Source: Schizosaccharomyces osmophilus (taxonomy: Eukaryota; Ascomycota; Schizosaccharomycetes; Schizosaccharomycetales; Schizosaccharomycetaceae). From it: a DNA stretch of 64,000 nt. Below are positions 7,395 through 52,388 of this stretch, one piece after another. The number at the start of each line of letters is the position of its first letter. The stretch's first letter is position 1. The stretch covers positions 2,507,501-2,571,500 of the forward strand of contig NC_079239.1 in the NCBI RefSeq assembly GCF_027921745.1. The letters run 5' to 3'. The translations under genes were made by a program, and so were the position numbers. The notes under the pieces were generated by a model. The model worked only from the letters and a program-made list of their open reading frames with translations. It ran no database searches and was not told where the DNA came from.

Positions 7395-9101
7395 ATGGAT
7401 TTAGGACGCGTAAAATCTTCAAGCTCTGTTGACGAAGGGCAATTGTCCAACAATAAACAATCAAGCCATCAGAACCCATTTGAAACTCCTTTGGAATTCG
7501 AAGCAGTCGAAAAATCATCAAAAAAGTCGAGTGAAATTGCAAATGTTGATCAGGGAGTTATTAACCCCGAGCTTTCCTTATCCGGTCATCATGGCTTTAA
7601 TGATACGGTGGAATGTCAACCTGTAGGTAAACGTATCTGGGTCCTTGCCGCAGCTGCAGGTATTGGAGGACTTCTCTTCGGTTATGACACAGGTGTTATT
7701 TCTGGTGCTCTAGTCGTTATGGGAGATAGTTTAGGGAAAACCTTGACTGATGGGGATAAAGAATACATCACATCATCAACGTCACTAGGAGCCCTCATCG
7801 GTGGTATCACCGCCGGTGCGCTTGCTGACTTTCTAGGTAGAAGGCCAGTCATTGCTATAACTAGTGTTTTTGTCATCGTTGGCTCTATCGTGCAGGCCAC
7901 TGCTCATACTTTATGGCATATGATTGCTGGTCGTTTCATTATAGGTATTGGCGTCGGTGTAGCTTCTCTTATTGTACCTCTGTATCTTAGTGAACTAGCA
8001 CCATCCAAAATCCGTGGTCGCCTTGTGATTGTCTATGTATTTCTAATCACTCTCGGTCAGGTTATAGCGTATGGTATCGATACTGCATTTGAACATGTTA
8101 TTAATGGTTGGCGTTGGATGGTGGGCCTTGCTATTGTCCCAGCTTTTATTCAAGCGGTTATATTAGTCTGGCTTCCTGAGTCTCCTCGCCTTTTGATCAA
8201 AAAAGATAAAGCTAAAAAAGCCTTCAAGACCTTAGCAAGTATTTATCCAACAGCTCATCCATATGAGATTGAAACCAAACTTCATATTATTCAGGAAGGT
8301 GTCCGTGATCCTTTTACTGGTACTAGATTCCAGAAAGTTATGAAAACATTCAAAGAGCTTTACTTCGTACCTTCCAATTTTCGAGCTCTTGTCCTTGCTT
8401 GTGGCTTACAAGCATTACAACAGCTTTCTGGCTTTAACTCTCTCATGTACTTTTCAAGTACTATCTTCCAAACAGTTGGGTTTGACAATCCAACTGCAAC
8501 TGGTCTTATTATAGCTGGAACCAATTTTGTTTTTACCATTGCTGCTTTCACAGTGATTGATCGCTTTGGCCGTCGCATATTATTGTTAGTTACTCTTTTG
8601 GGCATGATCGGTGCACTCATTGTGTGTGCTGTCGCTTTTCATTTTTTACCAAAAGACGAAAATGGAAACATTAAGGCAGGACAGGGAAATCCATGGGCTA
8701 TTGTTGTTTTAATTTCTATGATTTTTTATGTTGCATCGTATGCTTCAGGTCTTGGTAATCTTCCTTGGCAACAGTCGGAATTATTTCCAATGTCTGTTCG
8801 TGGGTTAGGTACAGGTATGGCTACTGCTATAAATTGGGCAAGTAATCTGGCTATCGGAGCTACATTTTTGACTTTAATGAGGGAAATAACTCCTACAGGT
8901 ACGTTTGCATTATATGGTGGTCTTTGTGCTGGCGGCTGGGTTATGTCATATTTTTGCTATCCAGAATTTGCTGATTATACAATTGAAGAAATCGGTATTC
9001 TGCTGAAAGACGGATTTGGTGTTAAAGAAAGTATGGAGCATCTACGAAGAGTTCGCCAGGAACGTGCTTGGTCTCAGGAGGACGATCAATCGAAAGCCTA
9101 G
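7395..9101 (+). CDS. itr1: Myo-inositol-type proton symporter, MFS sugar-porter family
   Basis: This is a plasma-membrane MFS transporter of 568 residues in one exon. A hydrophilic N-terminal tail of about 75 residues precedes twelve predicted membrane segments. Sugar-porter signatures are present: [17 protein letters not shown] in helix 1, GRRP after helix 2, the WRWMVG segment, [10 protein letters not shown] after helix 6, [17 protein letters not shown] in helix 7 and DRFGRRILL. The Asp and adjacent pattern in helix 1 and the overall sequence are closest to fungal inositol transporters (Itr1/Itr2). S. pombe is an inositol auxotroph, so the gene is expected to be important. The neighbour hcs1 suggests Itr1 rather than Itr2, but I recall S. 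pombe itr1 on the same strand as hcs1, whereas here the two diverge, so the paralogue assignment is less sure than the family. Confidence 0.82.
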
Positions 9102-9370
9102 CTGTGCCAAATCTTGAAACATCTTTTATTTTTTCTCTGTGCCTTTGCAGTATCCTTTATCTTTTATTTTTTTTTTCGATCTCATATATACTAGATGTCT
9201 TTATATCCTTGATTTTTTTGTTATTTTCCGTTTCATGAAAGATGTGTTATGTTGTACTTTTTCATTGTTTACTAATATTTATATAAATATATAATAATGT
9301 TTAATTTAAAACCTCTGTTAGACAACATCCATCTTCATTATCGTATTTTAAAGGATATTTTTATCTATTG

Positions 9371-10803
9371 TTAGGTAGAATCTAATTCCTGAATGTAATT
9401 AGAAGGAAACAATCCAACAGGTCCAACTGTGGGTTCAACAACACGACCCTTCCACCAGCCGTCCTTTTGTCGATTCAGAACAATTAATATATCGCCCGAT
9501 CGCATACTGATTTCTGAGGAAAGTAGAGCCCTATAATTATACAATGCACGCACTAATTAAATGTTAATAGATACTGTTTTTTTAGAATATATTTACATAC
9601 CGTAACCAAAAATCGGAAATCCATCAGGCGTTATCAATGGATGCGTCGAAAAGTATTTCTCTATGCTGTCGTTCTCCGATAGAGCTGTGTTTGAGGGATG
9701 GGCTGCAGAAGAAGTTTGATATTTAGCTGAAGATTTCTTTTGCAGACTTTCAGGATGCATATTATTTAGAGGAGAGACATGGGAAGATGTCAGAGGTGAT
9801 TCCCAGCCATTGGAAGTAACCACTTGCGAAGGATTCATTCCTCCTTTTTGGGGAGAATAGGAAGAAGGTAATGCATGCTTCTTCGGTTCGTTCACGCGAA
9901 ATTCTCGTGGGTCTCTATCAATTGTATCTTTCAAGGACTCTGGCTGAGCATTATATACCGGTAAAGGTGCCTGCTTACCCTTACTTATATCAGAAGGCTC
10001 CTTTTTAGAGTTAAATGCTTTTAAATCATTTGAAATAAGAGGATTGAGGCGTAACATCGTCAATGCCTCGCTTAGTCGCGATGTCCGATTTTCTAGCTCA
10101 GCATACTCTAGGTAAGAGGGAGAAAGAGATCTTCTCAGCTCGGGTATAGGTTCAGAAAGATGTGTAGGAGATTCAGAAGAAGAAGATAATGATGACTGTT
10201 CGGGCTGTTGGCTAAATTCCGGATTAGTGTAGAGTATAAAATTCTCCATGCTGGCCAAGAGTACGTCAGTAGCTTCCTATAAATTAGCTTAAGCAGGTAT
10301 CAATTTCATACCATGGATAATATAGATGTTGAAGACCGTTTCACCGCACGATTTACATGCTCCTGTAATGGCTCAAAGACCTGAAGCTGAAAATAGCGGT
10401 ATGCTTCTAGATGCTCTTTATTGGAATTCATAATCTCAGTACTAACTCTTTTGTAGAAGTCTTTCAACGAAGAACTACTGTGGCTTCCTTTCAGAGATTT
10501 CGTCAGTCGAGCCAATTTTCCTGCATAGTCCTGTTCTACTACCATCCTAATTATGTTAGATTTATGCATTTAGACCTATAATGAAGTTACAGAACAAAAC
10601 CAATGTTTATAAATGGCAAAGTTGACTAGTGTCTTCTTTTAATTTCACGGATGTGTATACCATTTCCTCAAAGTTCAGAGACCTTACCTTTGTTTTACCA
10701 CATGGTTCCATTCCAATAGGTTTTCCACAGTAAACTCTCCATCATCCATTTCTTTGATTTCCAGTTCATTCATTAACACATTGGGAATCTGTCTAGTTGA
10801 CAT
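9371..10803 (-). CDS. F-BAR-like and SH3 domain protein, 4 exons
   Basis: Exons are 10688-10803, 10312-10546, 9601-10276 and 9371-9552, with phases that join cleanly to 402 residues. Introns have GTAAGG or GTATG donors and CTAAC, GCTAAT or TTAAC branch signals. The N-terminus (about 1-120) looks like the start of an F-BAR/FCH module: helical, with LLEWNHVVKQR and VEQDYAGKLARLTKSL. It is far shorter than a full F-BAR domain of about 250 residues. A low-complexity Ser/Pro-rich middle follows. A C-terminal SH3 domain spans about 343-402 (ALYNYRALLSSE, GDILIVL, DGWWKGRV, GLFPSNYI). A role as membrane or actin-patch adaptor is inferred from this domain pair. I recall an SH3 gene at the equivalent place in S. 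pombe (SPAC7D4.02c). A mug137-like adaptor is another possibility. Confidence 0.72.
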
Positions 10804-28004: not shown

Positions 28005-30332
28005 TCAATCTTGAGGAACGCCTAAGACCCATCCTAAACCATTGGCAAATGAACTAGTGACCTTTTTGGCTATATCTTCTTCATCGTTATGTGAAAACTC
28101 TTGGTCGGGATGGACTGGGGGATCGGATTCATCATAATTTACATCGACACCGTCTTTCGCGGGCGCATCTACTTCGGCTGCAGCAAGAGACCACTCCTTG
28201 TCAAAGTCATATTCGTCTCCATCTTCATGTAATTCTTCGTGATTAACAGGTTCGTTAAGTTCTGGAAAAGCATCAGCATCCAAGTCACTCTCTGTTTCAT
28301 CTTTGTCCTTATTTGACTCGAATTCTGTCCAGTAATTAACAACATCATTAAGTTTTTCTTTTGGAGCATTGGCAATGGCAAGTTGAAGCATCTCAAGTCT
28401 TATTTCACGTGAAAGATAATCGTTTAGTGGAGTTTTCCCAATTTTATAACAAGTTTTGTAAATGGTTTCTCGCATACCAGCGCTAGATTCCGCTAATGTA
28501 ACAAGTCTGTCTTCAACTAGTTGCTTTGCCATAATCAAGTCGCTTTTGACCAATGCGGCATCTACACATCGATTCACAACTTGCTCGGTAATTTGGCGAA
28601 GTTGGGTTATAGCATCCTTGTAATTGAATTTTCCACAAGCTTTGTAAATTTCAATCGTGAGAGCCATAAGCTCATCGGCTTGCTGATATGAATGTTCATC
28701 TTGAGTTAGAATGAAGTCTAACAATTTATCAGGATCCAAGTTATCCTCTATTTGCTTAGGCGATAGCGGCTTTCCCTTTTCTATTAGAAAACGATATTGC
28801 TTAATTAAATCAACGGTGTTGATAAGGGCATTAAGACGCCGACGAGTTGTAGTAAGGCTACTGCATTCATCAAACACATCCAGAACTTGACTAGCAGTTT
28901 TTAACTTGCCGCGACTTTTGTTCATACTAGAAGCGGCTCGGAAATTTTCATAAAAGCTAGTTTCCATACAACTTTGAAGAATATCCGGATGAATATCAGG
29001 TAAAGCTAATTGATCCTTCATCTTGTCTAAAACTTTAAAATTTGATATAGATAGTAACATTTTTAGAAATATCAAAGAAATGTCTCTTGATTCTATTTTA
29101 TTAAAAAATAGATGTTGACTCTTCCAGGAGAACGTGACAGAAAAGACACTGTTCCAATCATTGTAGCTGGCAGTCCCCGATTCGCCCAGAGAACTAGAGA
29201 TATACTTTTGGAGGAATGTTTCCTGTGATGCCCTTTCTAAATTGGATAGGTTCAAACAAGCTCGCACACTTGGAACGGGAAACACATTAGCGCTTTTGAG
29301 AATTGGAATAGCATCAATGATACGACTTAATAAAGTAACAGACTCGCTAGTTGGATTCGTAAGATCAGTATCGTTGGATAAGAAAAAGTATATAGAGTTT
29401 TCTATAGGTCCTTTCAAAAGATTATCGTACGGGGCAGGAGAGAGTTTTAACTTTTCCTGTATATTTGCAAGCATTTGTTTTCCTAGAGACAAAGCGGTCG
29501 ATGTCGTTTCGTTGGAGATATAAAGGGAAGATAAAGCAACTTTCATCAATACTAACTTAAGCTTGGTATCGTCAATATTCCAGTGAATAATTAGCTCATG
29601 TAGTATCTCCAAGCCATCCGTTTTAACTAACTGAAGTAGTTTCTCCCATACATACGACCAACTGTCCTGTGAGCCTTCAGATTCAGATTCGGTAGCCAAA
29701 ACAAAAGGGAGGATGACACCGCTCATTATTGCAACACAGTTTTCAGAGCTTAAAATAGGAAAAGAAAGAGAAATAACATCACGAATGGAAGCTTTCTCCA
29801 TTTCATCCAAATCAACGGGAACGGAAGTGAATTGTGAAAGACGGTGAAATACTTCGAAACGCCCGCTGCTCCATTCTCTGATTTCAGAAGGCGCTTGCGA
29901 GCTTTTCATTAATAAGTAAGCTAACTGCACCTGATTTGTTTCTTCAACAATTTTTCTAGAAAAAATAGAGTAAAACTGGGAAACATTCTGAATTGAGGGA
30001 AGGCTGCTTTCCCAAAGTCCCATTCGTTTCAAACGATATTGACATAGCTTGTCTGAAGGAAGTTTCACAGTGGAAGCCACATCCAACGTATTACAAACTT
30101 CTCCCTGATCATTCTCAACATCTATATAAGGGATATAGACAGCAGGTTGGGTTGTTTCTGGTAAGAACTTAACTAACAGAGACAGCCAGTTCTCCAATGT
30201 CAATGACAAAGTGCCATATACAAATTTAGCCTCTGATAAGTTTGCATTCGTAATCAAATACAATAGTAAATACGTTTTTTGAGACTTTGCGAGCAGTTTG
30301 TACCATCTTGGACCTATTTCTTCTTCTTCCAT
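28005..30332 (-). CDS. sec39: Dsl1 tethering-complex subunit Sec39
   Basis: Sec39 is a helical solenoid subunit of the Dsl1 complex, which tethers COPI vesicles to the ER. The single exon gives 775 residues, close to about 769 that I recall for S. pombe. The chain is helical throughout. The C-terminal third contains the conserved Sec39 core around NLDPDKLLDFILTQDEH, the segment MALTIEIYKACGKFNYKD and RLVTLAESSAGMRETIYKTC. It ends in an acidic tail of about 80 residues rich in Asp/Glu. The ATG at 30332 begins MEEEEIGPRWYKLLAKSQK. In S. pombe I recall the DUF1212 gene as the next gene; here the NmrA island lies between them. Confidence 0.85.
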   Translation of the reverse strand: MEEEEIGPRWYKLLAKSQKTYLLLYLITNANLSEAKFVYGTLSLTLENWLSLLVKFLPETTQPAVYIPYIDVENDQGEVCNTLDVASTVKLPSDKLCQYRLKRMGLWESSLPSIQNVSQFYSIFSRKIVEETNQVQLAYLLMKSSQAPSEIREWSSGRFEVFHRLSQFTSVPVDLDEMEKASIRDVISLSFPILSSENCVAIMSGVILPFVLATESESEGSQDSWSYVWEKLLQLVKTDGLEILHELIIHWNIDDTKLKLVLMKVALSSLYISNETTSTALSLGKQMLANIQEKLKLSPAPYDNLLKGPIENSIYFFLSNDTDLTNPTSESVTLLSRIIDAIPILKSANVFPVPSVRACLNLSNLERASQETFLQKYISSSLGESGTASYNDWNSVFSVTFSWKSQHLFFNKIESRDISLIFLKMLLSISNFKVLDKMKDQLALPDIHPDILQSCMETSFYENFRAASSMNKSRGKLKTASQVLDVFDECSSLTTTRRRLNALINTVDLIKQYRFLIEKGKPLSPKQIEDNLDPDKLLDFILTQDEHSYQQADELMALTIEIYKACGKFNYKDAITQLRQITEQVVNRCVDAALVKSDLIMAKQLVEDRLVTLAESSAGMRETIYKTCYKIGKTPLNDYLSREIRLEMLQLAIANAPKEKLNDVVNYWTEFESNKDKDETESDLDADAFPELNEPVNHEELHEDGDEYDFDKEWSLAAAEVDAPAKDGVDVNYDESDPPVHPDQEFSHNDEEDIAKKVTSSFANGLGWVLGVPQD

Positions 30333-30753: not shown

Positions 30754-31122
30754 TGTCACAGGTTGAGTCTCACTTTTTATGAGTAAGTATTCAGTGGAAA
30801 CAAATATACAATTAAACAAGAATTGTAATAGAATTGGATTCTTAAATACTACTAGGATGAAATAGTAATAGCTCCCAGGTATCTGATTCACTAAGCAAGT
30901 TGTATGAACAATTTATTTTAGCTAGATCAGTCAAATCTTCCAATCTGAAGAATTGCCAGGTAATTTGCGATTTTGTATAATTTGTAACAAAGTCTTCGTC
31001 TAAAACTATTTTCTCTGTCTTCTTTCGACTCTCTGTCTAAACAGTTTCTTTGTTTACTCATTACATTCATGAATCCTTATTCTTATACAATAATAATATC
31101 ACAGCATTAGTAATATCGTATA
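30754..31122 (+). mobile_element. Left LTR-like inverted repeat arm (old, solo)
   Basis: About 369 bases beginning TGTCACAGGTTGAGTCTCAC. It matches, in inverted orientation, the arm at 32266-32626. Similarity is strong over the outer 200 bases and over the inner 38 bases (ending TAGTAATATCGTATA) and weak between. The TGTCA start and length near 360 resemble Tf-family LTRs of fission yeast, so a solo LTR of a Ty3/Gypsy-type element is the favoured reading. No internal retrotransposon region and no flanking target duplication are seen. The divergence suggests an old insertion. An alternative is one arm of a long inverted repeat that arose by duplication. Confidence 0.5.
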
Positions 31123-31128
31123 TGTTCA

Positions 31129-32085
31129 TTACACCTCTAAGAGTGTCTTTAAAACATCGGCAGGTGTACGCTTTGGCGCAGCGAGCTCAAGTACTTCGCT
31201 GCTGGTTGTGGAAGCTGAGCATTTGCCTTCCCACGCCGTCTCCAGGGCGTGTTTGATGGACAGGATAACGTTCTTTGATTGACCGTTTGCGGCGTGATTG
31301 AGCTCATAAAGTGAGTCAATGAACGATACGTCTTGATAGCTAACTTCCTTGACTTGCGTACCAATATGCTGCTCGACCATGTCCACAATCTGTTTCCCCG
31401 TGATATCCGTGGGTCCATTCAGAACATATTTGGCCCGGTTATACGCAGTAGGATCATCTTGGGATAAGAGATGAGCAGCAAAGACTCCAACATCATAAGA
31501 GTCGATAATGCCAACGGCCGCATCCTTCGACCCCCATATCCTAAGGGTATCCTGCTTTCCAGTTTTACGATACTTTTTAATAAATTCGGCGGCGGTGGAA
31601 AGGTAAAACGATGAAAAAACGTTCGGCTGAAGAGAAGTCCACTGCAAGCTGCTGAATTCCGGCGAGCTCAGGAGAGCCTCAATTGCCCAATGCGTGCGCG
31701 GATAGTAAGCGTTGCAATCCGGACGGACGTTCGCAGCAGTTGTCGAGATCCGCACAACATATTTGATACCAGCGTTGAGGGCGGCAACGTGGAATGTTGA
31801 CTCTTCGGCGAATTGATTCGGTTCGTTGTGGGATGCAATGAACGCTCTGACTACTTGGTGTTCATGAAGCCAGTCAGAGGTGATTTCAACCCAATTCTTC
31901 TCTATCACTTCAACTCCAGGCAGTCCGGCAAGCTGTCGTGCCATTGGACTCTCCGAGGAGCGAGTAAGAGCAATGAGGCGGTACTCAGACAAAGTGTTGC
32001 TTGATTTCAGCAACTTCGGCAGGGTTTCAGTTACACTGCGGCCAGTGTTACCAGTGGCTCCGACAATGAGGATGGAAGGAGCCAT
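31129..32085 (-). CDS. NmrA-like NAD(P)-binding oxidoreductase, probably acquired
   Basis: The ATG at 32085 gives 318 residues in one exon. The N-terminus is a Rossmann fold with the extended-SDR/NmrA signature ILIVGATGNTGRSV (glycine pattern GATGNTG). Later features are LNAGIKYVVRIST, the YYPRTHW segment, LQWTSLQPNVF and a C-terminal region ending PKRTPADVLKTLLEV. It is most like NmrA-family proteins that I recall from Aspergillus, Penicillium and relatives. The substrate is unknown; members sense or use NADP(H). The gene is visibly GC-richer than both neighbours and rich in GCG/GCC/CTC codons. It separates sec39 and the DUF1212 gene, which I recall as adjacent in S. pombe. The stop lies six bases inside the left repeat arm. 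These points together support horizontal acquisition. The upstream frame beyond this ATG uses a TTG and is not adopted. Confidence 0.85.
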   Translation of the reverse strand: MAPSILIVGATGNTGRSVTETLPKLLKSSNTLSEYRLIALTRSSESPMARQLAGLPGVEVIEKNWVEITSDWLHEHQVVRAFIASHNEPNQFAEESTFHVAALNAGIKYVVRISTTAANVRPDCNAYYPRTHWAIEALLSSPEFSSLQWTSLQPNVFSSFYLSTAAEFIKKYRKTGKQDTLRIWGSKDAAVGIIDSYDVGVFAAHLLSQDDPTAYNRAKYVLNGPTDITGKQIVDMVEQHIGTQVKEVSYQDVSFIDSLYELNHAANGQSKNVILSIKHALETAWEGKCSASTTSSEVLELAAPKRTPADVLKTLLEV

Positions 32086-32178
32086 GATCAAAGAGTATGG
32101 ACAGGTAACGGCCAAACGAAATTCAATCTTTGTCAAACAACGAGGTACTTCCCCTATATCTATTACAGCATGCTCTGC

Positions 32179-32186
32179 TTACGTAA
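32179..32186. promoter_or_regulatory. TTACGTAA bZIP (Pap1/Yap1-type) site
   Basis: The palindrome TTACGTAA, a consensus site for Pap1/Yap1-class bZIP factors, lies about 94 bases upstream of the NmrA-like gene's ATG, between the gene and the right repeat arm. Redox-responsive control is inference. Confidence 0.4.
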
Positions 32187-32265
32187 CTTATGATTTCGCA
32201 GGAGCGCTTCTATCCGATTAATCCCATTAGTAAAAAAAATTGTCAAGGCCGAGTGTCATAACCGG

Positions 32266-32626
32266 TATACGATATTACTAGTATTTTGATACAATAATTG
32301 TATTGTATTATCAAATACGTTATTACAAAAAGTAAAAATCCATTTTTGCGATTGAAATTTATTAAATTCTAGAAAGATATATAAATATACCTCTAGTTGA
32401 AAGGTCAAATCTTCAGATTGGAAGATTTGACTGATCTAGCTAAATAAATCGTTCACACAACTTGCTTAGTGAATCAGATCCCTGGAAGCCATTACTATTT
32501 CATCTTAGTAGTATTTAAGAATCCAATTCAAAGTTAAGTATACAAATCATTTACAATTGTAACTATTTTTTTTGTTTTTTTTTTAAATAACTTATTCTCA
32601 AAACAAGTGAGACTCAACCTGTGACA
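32266..32626 (-). mobile_element. Right LTR-like inverted repeat arm (old, solo)
   Basis: About 361 bases ending CTCAACCTGTGACA on the plus strand, the inverted partner of the arm at 30754-31122. Read on minus it starts TGTCACAGG like the left arm. It holds a short internal palindrome near 32405-32430 (TCAAATCTTC and its complement). The same Ty3/Gypsy LTR reading applies; no internal region accompanies it. The two arms point away from each other's interior like terminal inverted repeats, which is not the arrangement of a normal LTR retrotransposon. Confidence 0.5.
32281..32318. repeat. AT-rich imperfect hairpin
   Basis: GTATTTTGATACAATA faces TATTGTATTATCAAATAC, giving an imperfect inverted repeat of about 16 bp per arm just inside the right repeat arm. 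It could form a hairpin. No known role. Confidence 0.6.
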
Positions 32627-32864: not shown

Positions 32865-35150
32865 TTAAAAACTGAATAAACCAGAGCGCCGTTTTCCAAA
32901 AGGATAAATGACTAACGCAGAGGCAAATAAACCAACGGAAATACCGATAGCTATCTGAACCATATTTATACCGAACGAGAGAGAACTAGTATTAAAAGAA
33001 GAGTCATCGGAAGTGGTTGAGTTGCTGTTGTTACTAATTTGGGTAGCCAAATCAATTCCAAACTTGACACCGCCTTGGGCAGCCAAACCGGAAGGTACTT
33101 GCACAAAGATGGCTGGCAAAACGGCAGCAAATGCGACACCTTGGCCTAGACGAGAGTACAGATTTCCAAGACAACCAATAACAAAGGCTGCTATAGCATT
33201 TCCTATGGCCGCTGTATTCTTAAAATGTTTTTGGGTCGTAAAATAATTGACAATGTAACCAACACAAGATATGAATAAAGACACTGGCCATTGTGACGGT
33301 CGTGCCTGATTTACAATTAGTAAGCATACGGTAAAAAGAGGAACAAATAAAATTCTCCATTTATCGTCAATATATCGCTCAACACTACAAGTGTATTCCG
33401 AGGTTGCATGATGATCCATCCATCCATAAAGAGCTGCACCTATAGCGATACCAAAACTCAAAAATAATGAATAAATAATTGCATAAAACATTCGAACACT
33501 TCCTGCAACAATGTTTTTACTTTGCAATTCAAGAGATCCGCACAGGACGATATAACCAGGAAGGATTAGCACAATTGCACCTTCTGCTAAGGCTGCAAAA
33601 CAGAAGATAGGATTCGACTTATTTGCGCGATCATGAAAAATGCTTCCGAATGCTCGACTCAAAAAGGAAGTTAGAATAGAACCGGTGACCTCCAGTAGAC
33701 TATTGTACAAGGGCGACCTTGGGGCAATAAGTAGTTGAAGAGATCCGATAATTAAACCCAAAAAAAAGGAAATTGGAAGATCAATCCAACCGCCAGAAAA
33801 TGCGATTGGTAGAATAAAGGCACTTGCGAAACCATAAGTTACAACTAATATCCAAGTCTTAAAATAAGGAGGTGATTTTAGAATAGTGTCTAGTCCATTG
33901 ATCGCTTCCTCAACGCTCATCAAATCATGAACAACAGCTTTATAAACATCGTGAACTAACTTCAACTTCCCCAGGTCAACCGTCTGATTAACACGTACGA
34001 TATGCATATCAGAGGTATGGGTGTTTGTATCTCCAAACGAAATTATCATACAACCGGGAACATATAAGAATTGTCCCTCGATCTCCAGAACTTTTGCAGT
34101 AGAGGACATGTGCTCCTCCAACCGGTGGCTGGGTGCACCATGAGTCATAAGTGCTCGACAAAGCTTTAAAATGTATTTTTGCCTTTGTAGTACGTCTGCC
34201 AGGTGAACGGTAATTTTGTATTTTTCATTTAAAGACGAAGGCTTTTTTGAATGATGTGGAAAGTGAAACTTTTTGGATTTTTGATTCGGCAATTTCGGAA
34301 GATTCGATAAATCATCACGGGACTGAAATCCTACAGCTGGACCCATAAATGTCTGATTTGATGCACGCATAAGATCTGTAAGCGAATGACTGGAAGATAA
34401 TTGTGAATGCTTTTGTAGCTTAGAGGCATTTGGTTGTTTTAATGAAATTCTACTCGACGTAACTGTGTCAGCATTCGTATACAGCTTTAGCAAGCTAGAA
34501 AGAACACCAGCTTTGTAGTTCTTGGGATGACTTAATATGTCTAATTCATCTTCAAAAGGGTCTTTTTCATTCTCTTCGTCAGTGTTCTCTCCTGTATTCT
34601 TCATTGCATTCAATCTCATGTGTTCCAATTTTGCCGAAGTATGCGCCGCAACAAGTTTATAAGCTTCATTTACAGATGATGGTACTTTAGGAATAGTAGA
34701 AGTCAAATCCGTAGCCGAGTTGTTTTCCATATTATTCATTCCAATCATAGGGGCAGAATGACTTCGATCTAAAGTGGGTCTCTTGGCAATATTAGTAAGT
34801 GATTGATTTGGGCTATCTTGCGTTCGAATACTCGATGCATAACGTTCATCAATGCTGTTGTTATCGGACACTGGTCTAGATGCAACAGGACTTGGCAATG
34901 ATGGAATATTTAAGTTTCCATTGTCCGTAGAACCCGCAGACCCCGTCTGTCTATGAACAGCTGGTGAAGGTGCTCTATGGACGTTCAGAAATTGCGGTCC
35001 ATCATCTTCGTCTGACTCTTCATCTCCTTCTTCTATTGAGAAGGAAGGAGGTGGTCGTTGATAGGTAGTCGGGTTAGTATACGGCGCTTGACTATTATTC
35101 AAAAAGTGCCTTCTTTCAGTGTTAAATCGCACCCTTCGATTCCCTTCCAT
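32865..35150 (-). CDS. DUF1212 / ThrE-family membrane protein (Prm10-like)
   Basis: A single exon of 761 residues. The N-terminal 280 residues are hydrophilic and Ser/Pro-rich. The next part, about 310-480, is the soluble ThrE/DUF1212 domain, with LCRALMTHGAPSHRLEEHM, the segment QFLYVPGCMIISFGD and LGKLKLVHDVYKAVVHDLMSVEEA. It is followed by about ten membrane helices, including the glycine-rich AAIGNAIAAFVIGCLGN and VLPAIFVQVPSGLAAQGG segments. The bacterial relative ThrE exports threonine. Fungal Prm10/DUF3815 proteins have no proven substrate, so transport is inferred from fold only. I recall the S. pombe equivalent as SPAC7D4.12c, of nearly the same length. Confidence 0.82.
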   Translation of the reverse strand: MEGNRRVRFNTERRHFLNNSQAPYTNPTTYQRPPPSFSIEEGDEESDEDDGPQFLNVHRAPSPAVHRQTGSAGSTDNGNLNIPSLPSPVASRPVSDNNSIDERYASSIRTQDSPNQSLTNIAKRPTLDRSHSAPMIGMNNMENNSATDLTSTIPKVPSSVNEAYKLVAAHTSAKLEHMRLNAMKNTGENTDEENEKDPFEDELDILSHPKNYKAGVLSSLLKLYTNADTVTSSRISLKQPNASKLQKHSQLSSSHSLTDLMRASNQTFMGPAVGFQSRDDLSNLPKLPNQKSKKFHFPHHSKKPSSLNEKYKITVHLADVLQRQKYILKLCRALMTHGAPSHRLEEHMSSTAKVLEIEGQFLYVPGCMIISFGDTNTHTSDMHIVRVNQTVDLGKLKLVHDVYKAVVHDLMSVEEAINGLDTILKSPPYFKTWILVVTYGFASAFILPIAFSGGWIDLPISFFLGLIIGSLQLLIAPRSPLYNSLLEVTGSILTSFLSRAFGSIFHDRANKSNPIFCFAALAEGAIVLILPGYIVLCGSLELQSKNIVAGSVRMFYAIIYSLFLSFGIAIGAALYGWMDHHATSEYTCSVERYIDDKWRILFVPLFTVCLLIVNQARPSQWPVSLFISCVGYIVNYFTTQKHFKNTAAIGNAIAAFVIGCLGNLYSRLGQGVAFAAVLPAIFVQVPSGLAAQGGVKFGIDLATQISNNSNSTTSDDSSFNTSSLSFGINMVQIAIGISVGLFASALVIYPFGKRRSGLFSF

Positions 35151-51444: not shown

Positions 51445-52388
51445 ATGTCTCAGTCAGCTAACGCAGTGGAGCCTAAACAGAAGAAAGCAAGTCATTTTAA
51501 AGCAGGTGCGTTAGGAGGGTTTCTGTCAAGTGCTGCTCTGCAACCTTTGGATCTTTTAAAAACACGATTGCAACAAAGTCAACATTTGCCTCTGCCACAA
51601 ATTATTCAAAATGTCGTTCGCCAAGAGGGAGGCATCACGTCCCTATGGAAAGGAACGCTTCCTTCTATCCTCCGATCAACGAGTGGATCGTCATGCTACT
51701 TTTATGTTCTTAACTGGTTGCGACGGTATAACCCACAGAGCAATTTGTCCAGCTTGAAAAATACACAAAACTTTTGGACTGGTGGACTCTCGCGGGCAAT
51801 TGTTGGGTTCGTCTTTATGCCGGTAACTGTCATTAAAGTCCGCTACGAAGTAAGTCGAATAGCAATCTACTTGGTTTCTTTCCGCGTATCTAACTTTTTC
51901 AGAGTAATTATTATTCCTATACTACGATCGGATCCTCCATAAAAAGCATTTGGAAAAAAGAAGGTTTCCCCGGGTTTTTCCATGGTTTTGGTGTAACAGC
52001 CATTCGAGATGCACCTCATGCAGGACTTTATGTTTATTTTTACGAACTTTCTAAAGAAACAATTCACAATCTTCTTGGACACTTTCATGAAACCCTTCCC
52101 GGCGATGTTCTTCAAAACCCTTACAACAATTCAGTTAATGTGGCCTCCGGTATGTTTTCAGGGATCATAGCCACAACAATTACAAATCCTTTTGATATGC
52201 TTAAAACCCGTGTCCAGTTACAACCCGACCTCTATAAAAACTTCCTCTATTGTGCGAAACGTGTCTATATGAACGAGGGCTTATACGGTTTCTTAGATGG
52301 GCTTGCCCTCCGAGTTTTACGAAAATCTGTTTCTTCAACTATTACCTGGTCTGTTTACGAGTGGGCCATGCATCGAAATGATACGTAG
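51445..52388 (+). CDS. hem25: Mitochondrial glycine carrier Hem25 (SLC25A38), 2 exons
   Basis: A mitochondrial carrier that imports glycine for 5-aminolevulinate synthesis, the first step of heme biosynthesis. Exons 51445-51849 and 51903-52388 join in phase to 296 residues, the usual carrier size. Three repeats carry Px[DE]xx[KR] motifs. Repeat 1 has [10 protein letters not shown], repeat 2 has [10 protein letters not shown] (altered at the acidic position, as is common in Hem25), and repeat 3 has [10 protein letters not shown]. The SLC25A38-specific segments [21 protein letters not shown] and [21 protein letters not shown] are present. The intron interrupts just after RYE and has donor GTAAGT. 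Confidence 0.92.

Follow-up and report, generated by a model that had tools for sequence, protein, structure and literature searches.

A 64-kb window on chromosome 2 of the fission yeast Schizosaccharomyces osmophilus (C2:2507501-2571500; positions below are those of the window unless a contig is named) contains an intact NmrA-family gene of Aspergillus/Penicillium mould type, closely bracketed by two inverted long terminal repeats (LTRs) that belong to the host's own Ty3/Gypsy retrotransposons. The explanation that best accounts for the whole, to which we give a probability of roughly 0.8, is a recent transfer from mould to yeast of a gene whose position was shaped by recombination between LTRs and whose predicted product is a reductase. 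The genome searched comprises 11,412,266 bases in three contigs (5,565,604, 3,504,162 and 2,342,500 bases). The features on which the argument turns are:

31129-32085, minus strand: NmrA-family gene (atypical short-chain dehydrogenase/reductase, SDR), 318 residues, intact, of Eurotiales type, recognised from its open reading frame (ORF), Pfam and homologues
30754-31133, plus strand: left LTR, Tosmo-type, starting with TGTCACAGG; its 3' end reaches the NmrA stop codon, and it shares 95% identity with the LTR at C2:2279766-2280138
32254-32626, minus strand: right LTR, TGTCACAGG...TTATGACA, inverted with respect to its partner; 87% identical to its nearest counterpart elsewhere, C2:2332755-2333132
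32241-32253, minus strand: second LTR end of 13 bp, CTCGGCCTTGACA, immediately adjoining the right LTR and forming with it a double end that is present three times in the genome

Relatives and composition of the NmrA gene

The statements on relatives that follow refer to the best 120 of 1216 protein matches, of which 67 carry an organism name by hand count. After the protein itself come one match at 88% identity and two at 85% (P0002 to P0004), all without an organism name; the best named matches, at 82% over the full length, are from Aspergillus hancockii and A. leporis, and the named rows are all from Aspergillus, Penicillium, Talaromyces and, once, Monosporascus. No protein of S. octosporus, S. 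cryophilus or S. pombe is named among these 120, though all three species are in the database: the product of the adjacent sec39 gene finds its relatives there at 84%, 82% and 45% identity, respectively, so that an orthologue of ordinary divergence in S. octosporus or S. cryophilus would have been expected in the list. In a tree of 116 proteins (the 120 minus four longer than 325 residues) the gene joins P0002 (support 98/67, end branch 0.069) and then P0007 (84/80), and a second tree, of 41 rows and rooted on a distant outgroup, gives a like placement (92/65 and 96/74); the rooting of the latter by the genome's own NmrA paralogue has a very long outgroup branch and carries little weight. Because the deep forks are poorly supported, the claim made here is of a Eurotiales-type source and of no donor species.

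An earlier note on this DNA had placed the closest relatives in Pezizomycotina and proposed horizontal acquisition by a Schizosaccharomyces lineage. Both proposals are supported, and the vertical grouping with other Taphrinomycotina that would have spoken against them was not seen. With the closest named relatives in a distant taxon and, among the best 120 matches, none named from close relatives in the same database, transfer from a Eurotiales-type source into the S. osmophilus lineage is well supported.

The gene stands apart from its surroundings in composition as well, as the same note had observed from its GC-richness and codon use. Among 26 of the 27 window ORFs of at least 150 residues (51445-51942 was omitted; the ORFs are mechanical and some are exons), it is at the top in GC content (0.497, against 0.366-0.455 for the other 25) and in GC at synonymous third codon positions (GC3s; 0.511, others at most 0.405), and at the bottom in codon adaptation (0.610, others at least 0.655). 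It is present in a single copy; the genome's second-best match shows 30% identity and covers only part of the protein. The Pfam NmrA profile finds six sites in the genome including the gene itself, five of them above the cut-off, one of these only jointly with in-frame neighbours. Separately, an Epimerase/NmrA-like ORF of 295 residues with a GC content of 0.444 (L047:4388-5275, plus strand; C2:2354388-2355275) lies about 4 kb or less from an LTR-subtype end at C2:2359041.

Like fungus-to-yeast transfers in general, this is a single Eurotiales-type metabolic gene in a yeast chromosome; it differs in that its borders are host LTRs and that mould-derived neighbouring DNA is not recognised. The open-licence literature, judged by title and start of abstract, yielded no report of the NmrA gene, nor of any genes from moulds in these species, and the word 'NmrA' has a count of zero in the main text of PMC10085805 and PMC9562144.

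The bracketing LTRs and their ends

The segment 30754-32626 is delimited by the outer ends of two inverted repeats, both of them Ty3/Gypsy Tosmo-type LTRs facing inwards. With one of the two reversed, left and right repeat align at 81% along 222 nt (E 1.8e-53), with inverted arms of 88, 39 and 30 nt whose complementarity of 93-97% is far above chance. A genome search with the repeat region returned 109 matching pieces (of 84 candidates, 40 were scored) that begin with TGTCA and finish with TGACA, as described for Tosmo elements (PMC10085805). It is the TGTCACAGG start of both repeats, the TTATGACA end of the right one and the similarity to dispersed copies that mark the pair as Tosmo-type. The earlier note had suggested that the gene was carried in or trapped by repeats: trapping agrees with ends that are retrotransposon LTRs, whereas a role as carrier does not agree with repeats that are the host's own.

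The fit between gene and repeats is tight. Similarity to the left LTR stops at or slightly before the NmrA stop codon at 31129-31131 (within about 7 bp); the last ~9 bp of this LTR are diverged (ATTACA end), which gives an alternative end at 31124, and the coding strand at the 3' end of the gene reads GAG GTG TAA, with LTR sequence following on. The last codon and the stop of the gene may be LTR-derived. On the other side the inner end of the right LTR lies 155-168 bp upstream of the NmrA ATG, and the foreign remainder is little more than the coding region.

Two candidate explanations of this arrangement were rejected. A terminal-inverted-repeat DNA transposon with NmrA as cargo does not fit the many dispersed copies and the match to the published Tosmo ends; the repeats are LTRs, and their outer 5-mers, ATGTG and GTACT, differ. 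An arrival by retrotransposition, through an RNA copy of the gene, is unsupported: the LTRs are inverted, and the source gene is apparently intronless, as judged from full-length 318-residue homologues in metagenome and read-assembly sources.

Neither LTR has the matching 5-bp target-site duplication of an undisturbed solo LTR. The flanking bases are ATGTG/CCTCT on the left, read by eye, and AGTAC/CTCGG or AGTAC/ATTTT on the right, and there is no duplication around the whole 30754-32626 block either. Four or five of five bases match at 12 of 26 other LTR copies (L003, L004, L005, L006, L008, L008b, L012, L014, L016, L022, L023, L030), a count that took the best of several 3' ends and so favours matches; the end was misplaced for at least the left LTR, L002, L007, L024, L025 and L027, and L024 and L025, with four of five at the misplaced end, are excluded from the 12. 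Nor are the 26 a clean solo set, as L010, L024, L025 and L028 run into internal element sequence and L019/L020 and L024/L025 are identical pairs. A stricter scan finds perfect duplications at nine copies. Because neither bracketing LTR has a matching duplication, recombination in or between LTRs is likely. If the 101 LTRs counted for S. osmophilus (63 solo and 19 elements; PMC10085805) are assumed to be distributed over 45% of the genome, a gene with one LTR no more than 10 bp away and another, on its opposite side, no more than 160 bp away is expected 0.006 times per genome, an estimate that is rough and post hoc.

A further trace of recombination may lie in the double end on the right, which is found at three genome sites only: here, at C1:30900 and at C3:68844, the other two being near chromosome ends. 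The 12-mer TCGGCCTTGACA occurs 21 times in the genome and its reversed control not once; by eye, 13 of the sites resemble the 3' end of another LTR subtype, three are the double end and five are not LTR-like (L053, L054, L055, L061, L067). We infer that the 13 are in fact LTR ends of this kind, and two of them (L057, L063) continue into CCTCCC..CCTAAG, like the DNA that follows LTRs L010, L024, L025 and L028. The idea that CTCGGCCTTGACA is a shared locus flank or a duplicated promoter was dropped in view of the 21 occurrences of the 12-mer, most of them LTR-end-like. At C3:68 kb one LTR is nested within another, with a clean CTCGG duplication. The simplest reading is that the double ends have a common origin. 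By eye, the 3' half of the right LTR is otherwise closer to the copy at C2:2332755 (L003), which has no double end, and the history of the right LTR is at least mosaic. The nested LTR at C3:68 kb is itself flanked by two short-chain dehydrogenase genes that look alike by eye (L042:6759-7541 and 9041-9814, both plus strand; C3:66759-69814).

The pair can be set beside two known arrangements. Solo LTRs of Tosmo Ty3/Gypsy elements (PMC10085805) share the TGTCA...TGACA ends, the length of ~370-400 bp and the dispersed copies; here, by contrast, an inverted pair closely brackets a foreign gene and neither member has a target duplication. The wtf genes, which have spread by means of the repeats beside them (5S rDNA in the case of S. 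octosporus and S. osmophilus, an association with Tf in that of S. pombe; PMC9562144), are likewise compact genes between dispersed repeats that can recombine ectopically, but the NmrA gene is foreign, has no known driver function, lies between inverted LTRs and is present as one copy rather than as a spreading family at several repeat-bordered loci. By analogy, the same kind of recombination as at wtf loci may have placed it.

Other copies of the LTR have peculiarities of their own. Two tandem copies of the LTR start TGTCACAG are present in L014 and in L028, and L015 comes close to the same arrangement; the target duplication of L014 is found outside the tandem, and the repeat may predate integration. 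L019 and L020 (C3:1.140 and 1.152 Mb), and similarly L024 and L025 (C2:1.175 and 1.187 Mb), are like LTRs with like flanks in opposite orientation ~12 kb apart, perhaps parts of centromeric inverted repeats.

Beyond the LTRs lie the two genes that the earlier note had recognised as sec39 and a DUF1212 gene, identifications that Pfam upholds:

28005-30332, minus strand: sec39, native neighbour on the 3' side of the NmrA gene (Sec39, PF08314)
32865-35150, minus strand: ThrE-like gene on the 5' side of the NmrA gene (ThrE, PF06738, which we take to be the former DUF1212)

The predicted product

The complete 318-residue frame and its GATGNTG motif, both noticed from the letters alone, are confirmed: the motif occupies residues 9-15 and is invariant across 40 aligned rows, and the product matches Pfam NmrA PF05368 at 8.4e-14 and 52.3 bits (curated cut-off 27). 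Against the other 115 proteins the intact frame has no departure at the 52 columns that are invariant in them and none at the 77 that are at least 99% conserved; the pattern as a whole would fit recent selection with slight relaxation or adaptation. NCBIfam gave no match to the product, a Protein Data Bank (PDB) search with the single sequence found nothing, and one with a profile gave a single weak match, to an NmrA-family regulator over residues 4-24 only. The predicted fold is a Rossmann domain with a small C-terminal domain like that of NMRAL1, NmrA and QOR2, which would put the product in the NmrA/HSCARG (NMRAL1)/QOR2/triphenylmethane reductase group of atypical SDRs (PF05368), to whose solved members it is 14-22% identical. 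The product has YxxxH; the motif of classical SDRs is YxxxK.

Two features lie upstream of the gene:

32086-32240, minus strand: upstream region of 155 bp between gene and right LTR, GC 0.387
32179-32186, no strand assigned: TTACGTAA, 8-bp AP-1/Pap1-type site, the sole copy in the window (1.02 expected)

The product would be an atypical SDR, quinone/carbonyl reductase-like and perhaps stress-induced. Its likeliest role would be that of a reductase that uses NADPH to reduce quinones or other electrophiles, with the stress regulator Pap1 turning the gene on through the TTACGTAA box at -94, a fuller prediction that we put forward tentatively, at slightly under even odds.

Proposed history and its alternatives

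In the history proposed here, one NmrA-family gene would have passed from an Aspergillus/Penicillium-type mould into the S. osmophilus lineage, most likely after its split from S. octosporus, to judge from protein similarity and database presence. The present borders would then be the outcome of homologous recombination among LTRs scattered over the genome, either because an LTR-bordered piece moved here from a subtelomere or because DNA was deleted between LTRs that had landed on either side of the gene. The grounds for invoking LTR recombination are the missing target-site duplications together with the hybrid inner end that the right LTR shares with two subtelomeric LTRs. That the borders arose in one or other of these ways is probable; the move from a subtelomere, taken alone, is possible, with the odds leaning against it.

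Several observations weigh against this history or limit it. Target duplications are also absent at other genomic LTRs, such as L002, L009 and L015; LTRs within 500 bp on both sides of a gene are expected about once per genome by chance; and the double end on chromosome 1 lacks one base at the joint, so that it may reflect an independent event or insertion into the same LTR position. The supports nearest the gene are modest (98/67 and 84/80) and the nearest rows nameless, which leaves the donor at the level of Eurotiales. A distant fission-yeast relative may exist below ~73% identity, given that the best 120 of 1216 matches were listed, and the presence of S. japonicus in the protein database is not established. 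At the 95%-conserved columns the product departs 5 times in 129, ranking 106 of 116 (median 2), and some relaxation is possible. Finally, the candidate Pap1 site was spotted post hoc, and the upstream region is AT-rich like the host.

The foremost alternative is that a broken chromosome was repaired by capture of mould DNA along with LTR cDNA ends, gene and inverted LTRs arriving in one patch. Inner borders at or near LTR 3' ends and the lack of a target duplication of either LTR or of the block are what end-joined cDNA would leave, but the LTRs are different, diverged copies (left 95%, right 87% identical to separate genomic LTRs) and not the product of one cDNA burst, and the right double end is also present in other genomic copies; we consider this capture unlikely.

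It is a still fainter prospect that a mould first passed the gene to a different fission yeast or to a hybrid donor, from which S. osmophilus then received it. This route has some appeal in light of a second mould-like gene, a GC-rich oxidoreductase/epimerase frame (L037:706-1746, minus strand; C1:28886-29926) in the subtelomere of chromosome 1, ~1 kb from the double end there, with a GC content of 0.519 over its annotated 222-residue part. Among the best 120 of its 387 matches, two S. cryophilus proteins come first, at 94% and 84%, followed by matches at 72% or less that, where named, are mostly from Aspergillus, Penicillium and other Pezizomycotina; neither S. octosporus nor S. pombe is named in any of the 120, and the S. 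cryophilus record extends further at the N-terminus than that of S. osmophilus. The 94% is higher than the mean orthologue identity of 85.2% between the two species (PMC9562144). Against an indirect route for the NmrA gene itself, S. osmophilus is the only fission yeast named among its best 120 matches. As the subtelomeric gene is mould-like too, such genes in the clade are not unique to the window, and the earlier note's remark that the genus has few transferred genes is possibly too strong.

Vertical descent of an old fission-yeast gene kept by S. osmophilus only is very improbable: the other NmrA-profile matches in the genome do make the fold itself not foreign, but the protein is 82% identical to Aspergillus, where Sec39 of S. 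osmophilus and S. pombe share 45%, and the gene is a composition outlier with a nearest genome match that is partial and 30% identical. Contamination or misassembly, for which only the foreign-looking composition speaks, is next to negligible for a gene joined to host LTRs on both sides within a 3.5-Mb chromosome contig.

The kind of event proposed here, a recent mould-to-yeast transfer, is known; its anatomy is uncommon and testable. Clean recent transfers from moulds to fission yeasts with legible borders are cases from which the fixation of foreign DNA can be read, and as this gene is bordered by LTRs of host retrotransposons and occurs in a species near model organisms of which many strains are easily sequenced, it can be tested directly whether the gene came first, the LTRs came first or both came together. 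A bolder and rather improbable extension is that subtelomeres of S. osmophilus serve as entry ports for mould genes and inverted LTR pairs as handles by which gene cassettes are carried into chromosome interiors; if that were true, the NmrA gene would be a delivered cassette and the epimerase of chromosome 1, beside its rare double end, one still at the port. Inverted retroelement ends around an intact mould gene suggest a way in which foreign genes may become lodged in a yeast genome.
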